Shown here: piece after piece, positions 45,781 through 51,051 of the stretch
How positions within the stretch are numbered: position 1 is the first letter of the stretch
How the letters are laid out: each line of letters begins with the position of its first letter
Source of the DNA: Stenocarpella maydis
Lineage: Eukaryota > Ascomycota > Sordariomycetes > Diaporthales > Diaporthaceae
Direction of reading: 5' to 3'
NCBI GenBank assembly: GCA_002270565.1
Contig: NQMI01000021.1
Location: 288,823-352,822, forward strand
Length of the DNA stretch: 64,000 nucleotides
The notes under the pieces: generated by a model
What the model saw: only the letters and a program-made list of their open reading frames with translations
The model's database searches: none
What the model was told of the DNA's origin: nothing
Program-made: the position numbers and the translations under genes

Positions 45781-45797
45781 AAAAAAAAAATACAAAA
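45781..45797 (-). terminator. Pol III T-run terminator of tRNA-Lys
   Basis: On the minus strand, about 26-43 bases past the tRNA-Lys 3' end, the sequence reads TTTTGTATTTTTTTTTT, a strong RNA polymerase III terminator. Confidence 0.75.
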
Positions 45798-45859
45798 GAG
45801 AAGGCAAAGACCGCCGGGAATTGAGCCCGACGTGGGGGTCGAACCCACAACCTTGAGAT

Positions 45860-45881
45860 TCATCAGAGTCGTGACAATGTA
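45860..45881 (-). other. Canonical-position tRNA intron, 22 nt
   Basis: This segment lies between A37 and A38 once the adjacent GT..AG unit is removed, which is where tRNA splicing endonuclease cuts in eukaryotes. The boundary can shift by a base because of repeated bases. Its size is normal for fungal tRNA introns. Confidence 0.7.
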
Positions 45882-45883
45882 TA

Positions 45884-45940
45884 CTGTTTATTGTTAGCGA
45901 TGGTGGGTTACAAATGGTGTCGCCGGAGCCAGGAACTTAC
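45884..45940 (-). other. mRNA-type (GT-AG) intron inside the tRNA-Lys anticodon
   Basis: 57 nt beginning GTAAGT, with GCTAAC whose branch A (45894) is 10 nt from the final G of AAACAG. These are textbook filamentous-ascomycete spliceosomal signals, of the same length class as the protein-gene introns in this window. It separates anticodon bases 35 and 36. Excision is needed to create both the CTT anticodon and the canonical intron site. Whether the spliceosome or another activity removes it cannot be told from sequence. Confidence 0.75.
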
Positions 45941-45975
45941 AGAGTCTCACGCTCTACCGATTGAGCTAGCCGGGC

Positions 45976-50904: not shown

Positions 50905-50910
50905 AAAAAA
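50905..50910 (-). terminator. Pol III T-run terminator of initiator tRNA-Met
   Basis: Six T on the minus strand lie 11 bases past the tRNA 3' end, and a second T6 follows at 50895-50900. This is the expected polymerase III stop signal. Confidence 0.8.
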
Positions 50911-50921
50911 GTACTGTGTTG

Positions 50922-51051
50922 TAGCTATGACTGGTTTCGATCCAGCGACCTCCGGGTTATGAGCCCGGCGCCTGTTATGTTTGTTAGCTCAATGTTGCTG
51001 ATAATTTTCTTGATTGCAAGTCAACTCACTCTTCCCCTGAGCTACATAGCT
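50922..51051 (-). tRNA. Initiator tRNA-Met(CAT), split in the D-arm
   Basis: The minus-strand acceptor AGCTATG pairs perfectly with CATAGCT, followed by discriminator A. After removal of the internal 58 nt the D-arm is GCTC-AGGGGAA-GAGC. The anticodon arm is CCGGG-CTCATAA-CCCGG, the variable loop AGGTC, and the T-arm GCTGG-ATCGAAA-CCAGT. Features typical of eukaryotic initiators are all present: an A1-T72 pair, A54 and A60 in the T loop (ATCGAAA), and three consecutive G-C pairs at the base of the anticodon stem. Compared with the usual fungal initiator, the acceptor and D-stem appear changed in compensating pairs, so the fold is kept. Without removing the insert, the D-stem and the base before the anticodon stem are destroyed. 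The A box (TAGCTCAGGGG) lies wholly upstream of the insert. The B box is GGATCGAAACC. Confidence 0.88.
50972..51029 (-). other. mRNA-type (GT-AG) intron inside initiator tRNA-Met
   Basis: 58 nt starting GTGAGT and ending ATAACAG, with GCTAAC whose branch A (50984) is 12 nt from the final G. It interrupts the 3' strand of the D-stem (GA|GC), far from the canonical 37/38 site. The junction can slide by one base because G follows on both sides. The segment also contains a small TTGA-CTTGCAA-TCAA hairpin that mimics an anticodon arm, probably by chance. Confidence 0.75.

Follow-up and report, generated by a model that had tools for sequence, protein, structure and literature searches.

Does the spliceosome take part in making tRNAs? 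The question is raised by a tRNA-Lys(CTT) gene in the stretch of 64,000 nucleotides analysed here (the 64-kb window), whose anticodon is divided by an insert of mRNA-intron type and which carries an ordinary tRNA intron as well. Textbook tRNA splicing involves no spliceosome. The insert and its counterparts elsewhere in the genome (units hereafter) look like ordinary mRNA introns, so the cell would need the mRNA splicing machinery to make tRNAs. From our survey of one genome, a 53.5-Mb assembly of 312 contigs, the unit in the Lys gene is very probably a true spliceosomal intron of the U2 type, located in a Pol III tRNA gene, and one of a set.

The Rfam tRNA model (RF00005) spanned exactly 45824-45975 on the minus strand, 152 nt, with 49.5 bits versus a gathering score of 29. 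The strand had not been given in the earlier note. The mature body has 73 nt and two interruptions. Exon 1 (positions 1-35; 45941..45975) contains an uninterrupted A-box region and ends with C32 T33 C34 T35. It is followed by the 57-nt spliceosomal-type unit GTAAGT..CGCTAAC..ACAG (45884..45940), which matches the pattern GTAAGT..CTAAC..AG and lies between anticodon bases 35 and 36. Then come T36 and A37, a two-nucleotide exon separating both introns (45882..45883), and a 22-nt ordinary tRNA intron at 37/38 (45860..45881). Exon 3 (positions 38-73; 45824..45859) was assigned by sequence reading and Rfam and has an uninterrupted B box, GGTTCGACCCC; the other exons and the terminators were assigned by sequence reading. 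Behind the gene, at 45781..45798, the transcribed strand has runs of T4 and T10, which are terminators of Pol III type. All these features are on the minus strand. ARAGORN read the unspliced gene as Gln(ctg). Once the 57 nt were removed, it called tRNA-Lys(ctt) with a 22-nt intron, i(37,22), and the spliced body was also called Lys(ctt). The earlier note had described a 57-nt unit GTAAGT..GCTAAC..ACAG after CTCT, then TA, then 22 nt, and sequence reading and Rfam agreed with every part. Its proposal that removal of the 57 nt rebuilds CTT and places the 22 nt at 37/38 was borne out by the ARAGORN call.

DNA search of the genome found at least six Lys(CTT) genes. Five of them, C123 (the window gene), C278, C44, C276, and C258, each contain a unit of 55-57 nt and an ordinary intron of 20-22 nt. 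The sixth, C292, is a paralogue without the GT-AG unit and has the ordinary intron alone (66 nt); it offers a within-genome counterpart of the orthologue comparison suggested in the earlier note. Exon 1 is the same in all six genes as far as each junction. After all inserts were removed, an identical 73-mer was obtained from 5 of the 6 genes, and C44 was without one C in the 3' exon. The unit junction is CTCT|TA in C123, C278, and C44, CTC|TTA in C258, and CTCTT|A in C276. Because the donor and acceptor (GT, AG) shift together, the product is CTCTTA in all five unit-bearing copies, and the exon between the two introns is just 1-3 nt across copies. The units themselves are 68-89% identical over all pairs of the five copies.

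These junctions bear on the idea that the endonuclease makes a single 75-80-nt excision at 37/38, yielding a different tRNA. ARAGORN called unspliced C278 Gln(ctg), the same as C123, and ordinary introns in this genome are up to 66 nt long, both as such an excision would have it. However, it would produce CTG in C123, C278, and C44, CGT in C258, and CTT in C276 from one body, and it would leave U37 in 4 of the 5 copies, whereas the body matches Lys C292. It is disfavoured in C123, C278, C44, and C258 because CTG or CGT would result, and it cannot account for the units in initiator Met, Ser, or Val genes described below. We find a single excision barely credible. Two introns of different class, removed separately, remain our preferred reading for the Lys genes, and the four more Lys copies with the same layout support it.

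The Lys(CTT) copy L053 (C44:53637-53831, minus strand) contains three inserts by sequence reading. The third is a 63-nt unit, GTGAGA..TTTGCTAAC..CTCAG, in the T arm; CTAAC is present, and the B box is divided. This T-arm unit was single-copy in the genome by DNA search. It is probably a recent gain, since it is absent from the five other Lys copies. The gene itself may be dead because its B box is split and one C is missing in the 3' exon.

The second tRNA gene of the window has a unit too. It is a 130-nt initiator tRNA-Met(CAT) gene (50922..51051, minus strand; Rfam 45.3 bits), which was absent from the earlier note. It and the Lys(CTT) gene are the sole two Rfam tRNAs in the 64-kb window. 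A 58-nt spliceosomal-type unit, GTGAGT..GAGCTAAC..ACAG, found as a donor-pattern match, lies in the 3' strand of the D stem (50972..51029, minus strand), and a T6 Pol III-type terminator stands behind the gene (50905..50910, minus strand; sequence reading). The gene has A1:T72, three G:C anticodon-stem pairs (GGG/CCC), A54, and A60, which we take to be initiator hallmarks. ARAGORN called the spliced 72-mer Met(cat), and 21/21 of its stem pairs are present. All three initiator Met genes found in the genome carry a unit at the common D-stem site. The units are 62-64% identical between copies, and the exons keep 21/21 pairs in the three copies. Over two comparisons the exons show three double changes (pair 7:65 in both comparisons, 6:66 in one). 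A further three changes affect one side only and leave the pair intact, and two differences are at unpaired positions. In the predicted fold of the precursor, the D arm pairs with the unit and covers part of the branch-point element, and this pairing would have to open for splicing. No intron-free initiator Met gene was found by DNA search of the genome, such searches giving lower bounds.

One Ser(GCT) gene was found (C226). It has a single intron, a 60-nt unit that separates positions 32 and 33. DNA search of the genome, again a lower bound, found no intron-free Ser(GCT) gene, whereas the same kind of search as for initiator Met and Ser did recover the separate exon halves of Lys C292. Two Val(CAC) genes were found. 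C246 contains a D-loop unit of 55 nt as well as an ordinary intron; the body of C12 is the same, with the ordinary intron present and the D-loop unit absent. The two bodies differ solely at T-stem pair 49:65, which is changed on both sides. For the Val D-loop unit, gain and loss look alike in these two sequences and cannot be told apart. The ordinary 38-nt intron of the C12 gene (L155, C12:818109-818219, plus strand) starts with GTGAGT and has no AG at the splice point; this start is possibly chance or a relic of a changed intron class. The like units in initiator Met, Ser(GCT), and Val(CAC) genes lend further support to the mRNA-type reading of the Lys insert.

The signals were compared over the whole set. 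All 11 units read GT..CTAAC..AG (donor GTNNGN) with a length of 53-63 nt, and the branch A is 9-13 nt from the end. Seven donors fit GURWGY fully and four depart from it, the consensus being that of the available part of a fungal stwintron study (PMC8469720). The Val unit has AAG as its acceptor, not YAG. The units lie in the D loop, the D stem, at 32/33, in the 34-37 region (34/35 to 36/37), and in the T arm. None is at 37/38, the site of ordinary TSEN introns, where the separate 22-nt Lys insert is found. By comparison, 43 inserts at the ordinary position had no CTRAC, two started with GT, and none ended with AG. A glycogen synthase gene in the window has four introns with GT, CTRAC, and AG and 55-64 nt (one gene, by eye). 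The top-scoring named matches to its protein were those of Whalleya and Hypoxylon (91-92% identity), closely followed by Metarhizium and Xylaria (91-92%), and proteins without a species name reached 94-96%; the fungus is accordingly a sordariomycete, probably though not certainly one of the Xylariales. The size and signals of the units match those of these four introns.

The window was searched with GTAAGT and GTGAGT, each followed by N20-50 CTAAC N2-25 AG. The two patterns gave three matches in 64 kb, with expected counts of 0.25 (GTAAGT) and 0.59 (GTGAGT). In shuffles of the window, 8 of 100 reached two matches for the GTAAGT pattern and 35 of 100 reached one for the GTGAGT pattern. Judged by these figures, the number of matches alone is unremarkable. 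Their places are notable: two matches coincide exactly with the inserts in the window's pair of tRNA genes, and the third is a glycogen synthase intron. At each of five sites, a shuffled unit regained GTNNGN..CTAAC..AG in one trial out of 200,000; with 600,000 trials at two of these sites, the counts were 7 and 4. The units contain no TTTT, which is weak support, as the same was seen in 1849 of 20000 shuffles.

If GT..CTAAC..AG were coincidental, the units could be non-canonical tRNA introns cut by a relaxed BHB-type endonuclease. Introns attributed to the endonuclease do exist at non-canonical places in some eukaryotes, according to the available part of PMC4090602, and ordinary tRNA introns are heavily used here: 43 of the 71 genes read have such an insert only. 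However, at the one register tested, the 4-bp central helix that the BHB motif has between 3-nt bulges was absent, with at most 2 of 4 pairs in each of the 11 units. All 11 keep GT, CTAAC, and AG while the remainder diverges, and their size and signals fit the four mRNA introns of the glycogen synthase gene. Cutting by such an endonuclease is very improbable on these grounds.

The count of 71 nuclear tRNA genes was assembled from an Rfam list, DNA searches, and three gap-free B-box motifs. It comprises 63 genes, including two unit-bearing Lys genes, and eight added genes with units (three Lys, three initiator Met, Ser, and Val). Units were present in 10 of the 71, an ordinary-position insert alone in 43, and no insert in 18. 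The 11 units belong to 5 of 6 Lys(CTT), 3 of 3 initiator Met, 1 of 1 Ser(GCT), and 1 of 2 Val(CAC) genes. The proportion of 10 in 71 is no frequency estimate because the Rfam ranking favours uninterrupted genes and the DNA searches extended known families. After removal of the units, ARAGORN called all 10 genes Lys, Met, Ser, or Val, with C44 lacking one C. With the units in place, it gave the right isotype for three, a wrong one for four, and no call for three. A common tRNA finder is thus poor on such genes, and related fungi may hide more of them.

Another possibility is that the genes with units are pseudogenes, or otherwise dead, and gained their inserts by chance, with functional copies elsewhere. 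Unit-free copies exist for Lys (C292) and Val (C12), the B box of Lys C44 is split, and the tRNA search was incomplete, with 63 of 1343 candidates scored. According to the available part of PMC4090602, an insertion present in just one out of many synonymous tRNA genes of a eukaryote mostly marks a pseudogene. On the other hand, the exons are kept or mostly compensated while the inserts diverge, which dead genes are not expected to do, and CTT is restored by sliding junctions in 5 of 5 unit-bearing Lys copies. DNA searches, which turned up neither an initiator Met nor a Ser(GCT) gene free of introns, did recover the exon halves of Lys C292. We therefore judge it very unlikely that the interrupted genes are dead as a group, and we continue to read them as probably working genes with spliceosomal introns. 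Rfam at the gathering threshold was also run on 15 loci. It recovered the Ser gene and part of one initiator Met gene and missed Val C246, Lys C44, initiator Met C251, and Val C12. These misses are not unit-specific, since the unit-free Val C12 was missed as well.

Spliceosomal splicing is normally coupled to Pol II. This usual tie favours another explanation, that the units are spliceosomal and Pol II transcribes the genes, for instance within longer transcripts from which the tRNA is processed out; the loss of a contiguous B box in C44 would also suit it. Against it, in 9 of the 10 unit-bearing genes, all but C44, neither the A nor the B box is interrupted (by eye), T runs stand behind both window tRNA genes, and U6 is a precedent for the splicing of a Pol III transcript (PMC10484740, available part). 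Transcription by Pol II seems very improbable, and Pol III is the polymerase assumed in the scheme given below.

U6-like genes of this genome are interrupted too. By eye, GT..AG units were seen between GAT and TAGC in three of them, C167 (L148), C301 (L150), and C68 (L152), and C21 (L149) apparently has two. C68 has no recognisable 5' half. Only C1 (L147) and C167 (L148) passed the Rfam cut-off for U6; C1 has the best score, is uninterrupted, and looks diverged. Some U6 units contain the B-box-like sequence GTTCGATTC or a similar one. A B-box-like sequence within the unit is also a feature of Schizosaccharomyces U6, going by a title cited in the available part of PMC10484740. No unit was seen in the 30 listed matches to 5S genes (the best 47 of 2715 candidates were scored).

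We propose the following scheme for the Lys gene. Pol III would transcribe it from the uninterrupted A and B boxes. In the nucleus, the spliceosome would take out the GT..CTAAC..AG unit, so that T35 is joined to T36 and the CTT loop is rebuilt. The tRNA splicing endonuclease and ligase would act next and take out the 22-nt intron at 37/38. For initiator Met and Ser(GCT) the spliceosomal step would suffice, and Val(CAC) C246 would need both. The units may have originated by intron gain such as reverse splicing. The anatomy, the match of signals, the recurrence, the sliding junctions that preserve the product, and the conserved or compensated exons are read directly from the sequence. It is likely that the spliceosome is an obligatory tRNA-processing enzyme here, with serial splicing by two systems in Lys and Val and at least five entry sites, at least one of them recent.

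A fixed order of both reactions is plausible because the Lys anticodon loop, or the Val D loop, stays interrupted until the unit leaves. The tRNA splicing endonuclease of yeast is cytoplasmic; if that is so here, nuclear splicing would come first by location alone. The endonuclease measures from the tRNA body (PMC4090602, available part), so a normal Lys loop would be visible to it only after loss of the unit. Against a fixed order, the half-spliced Lys RNA (95 nt) is predicted to form its acceptor, D, and T stems and not the anticodon stem that the endonuclease would need. Folding predictions for Lys, with the unit in or out, gave no cloverleaf with an anticodon stem.

The nearest known case is in fission yeast. 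mRNA-type introns in the U6 snRNA genes of Schizosaccharomyces pombe were reportedly described by Tani and Ohshima in 1989 and 1991 and by Frendewey et al. in 1990. The likeness is a spliceosomal intron in a small Pol III RNA, and U6-like genes are interrupted here too. The difference is that the hosts here are tRNAs, some with a second splicing system. As U6 is a component of the spliceosome, one can readily imagine reverse splicing into it, and the intron of fission-yeast U6 is thought to derive from reverse splicing (PMC10484740, available part). For structural RNAs of another kind, spliceosomal introns occur more widely in fungal rRNA genes, and Rogers et al. are said to have reported them there in 1993. 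They too are mRNA-type introns in a structural RNA, whereas rRNA is a Pol I product and tRNA a Pol III product.

Among tRNA introns, the 22-nt Lys and 38-nt Val inserts are like the ordinary 37/38 introns removed by Sen/TSEN (PMC4090602, available part), whereas the GT-AG units sit elsewhere and carry spliceosomal signals. In the available part of the same paper, the eukaryotes given as having non-canonical tRNA introns are nucleomorphs and a red alga; it leaves open how very short nucleomorph tRNA introns are spliced and contains the string 'spliceosom' 0 times. Nucleomorph, red algal, and archaeal tRNA introns resemble the units in that there can be several per tRNA, with the D and T arms included (PMC4090602, available part). 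The archaeal and red algal ones are attributed there to BHB and the tRNA endonuclease, whereas BHB was absent from our units at the register tested. In its available part, PMC11782384 names no spliceosomal tRNA intron. tRNAscan-SE 2.0 models non-canonical introns for archaea, and 'spliceosom' occurs 0 times in the available part of its description (PMC8450103). In Hypoxylaceae, which probably belong to the same broad group as this fungus, proliferating stwintrons and sister introns were gained at new places without flanking duplications (PMC8469720, available part); the main text, as far as available, has 0 mentions of tRNA. Those introns are multi-copy and symmetrical, whereas the tRNA units searched had no relatives beyond their own isotype. 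No near-identical copies of the units, as introner-like elements or sister (stw)introns would have, were found at unrelated places, and the genome searches, the Val unit excepted, matched the same isotype or the unit itself. Among titles and abstract openings of the open-access literature, a scope with subscription journals mostly outside it, we found no report of spliceosomal introns in nuclear tRNA genes.

If the units are spliced as proposed, the spliceosome would be essential for translation initiation in this lineage, and splicing capacity would be tied to protein synthesis. Splicing of initiator Met and Ser(GCT) would precede any protein start and any reading of AGC or AGT codons. It would follow that spliceosomal introns can invade Pol III genes that are short and structured, and that even an anticodon can accommodate them. 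These genes would be a natural setting in which to study how the spliceosome is recruited to a short transcript that lacks both a cap and the Pol II CTD.

Further details of the survey are given here. In the Rfam tRNA search of the genome, 63 of 1343 candidates were scored, giving 57 rows, 42 of them nuclear, and this list did not contain the window's own two tRNA genes. The B-box motifs occurred at 95, 40, and 49 places versus 114, 56, and 27 for the reversed controls, mostly by chance. Newly read were 78 regions, 33, and 40, respectively; the others were known genes, rows on the mitochondrial contig, and five unread places (5 of the 45 new places of GGTTCAAWTCC, on C297, C301 twice, C306, and C307). 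A 743-nt probe of ten approximate tRNA bodies gave no genome match, an uninformative result. Exact scans gave 0 matches for the Lys 3' exon in prokaryotic and viral collections and 0 for the initiator Met exon in the viral collection. L045 (partial) and L153 (first pair mismatched) were counted despite their weakness. Left out of the count were L069, L082, L035, and L036, which are the same genes as others, and the scan hits L093 and L122, as well as mitochondrial contig rows. Eight places with a good T stem and no convincing body (L087, L099, L114, L118, L129, L141, L171, and L174) were also left out, as were the repeats L192 and L204. The latter two (C13 and C89) are tRNA-like and resemble each other closely; they measure 118-119 nt, contain a B box, have acceptor ends that pair, and look like a tRNA-derived repeat. 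L174 (C236:44900-45190) has a T run behind a perfect T arm, with no convincing 5' half within ~250 bases and no Rfam match at the gathering threshold; it could be a tRNA with a larger insert. L087 (at C37:68004-68014, minus strand) is a tRNA-like sequence of 137 nt, and its ill-defined middle has CTAAC a few bases before AG.
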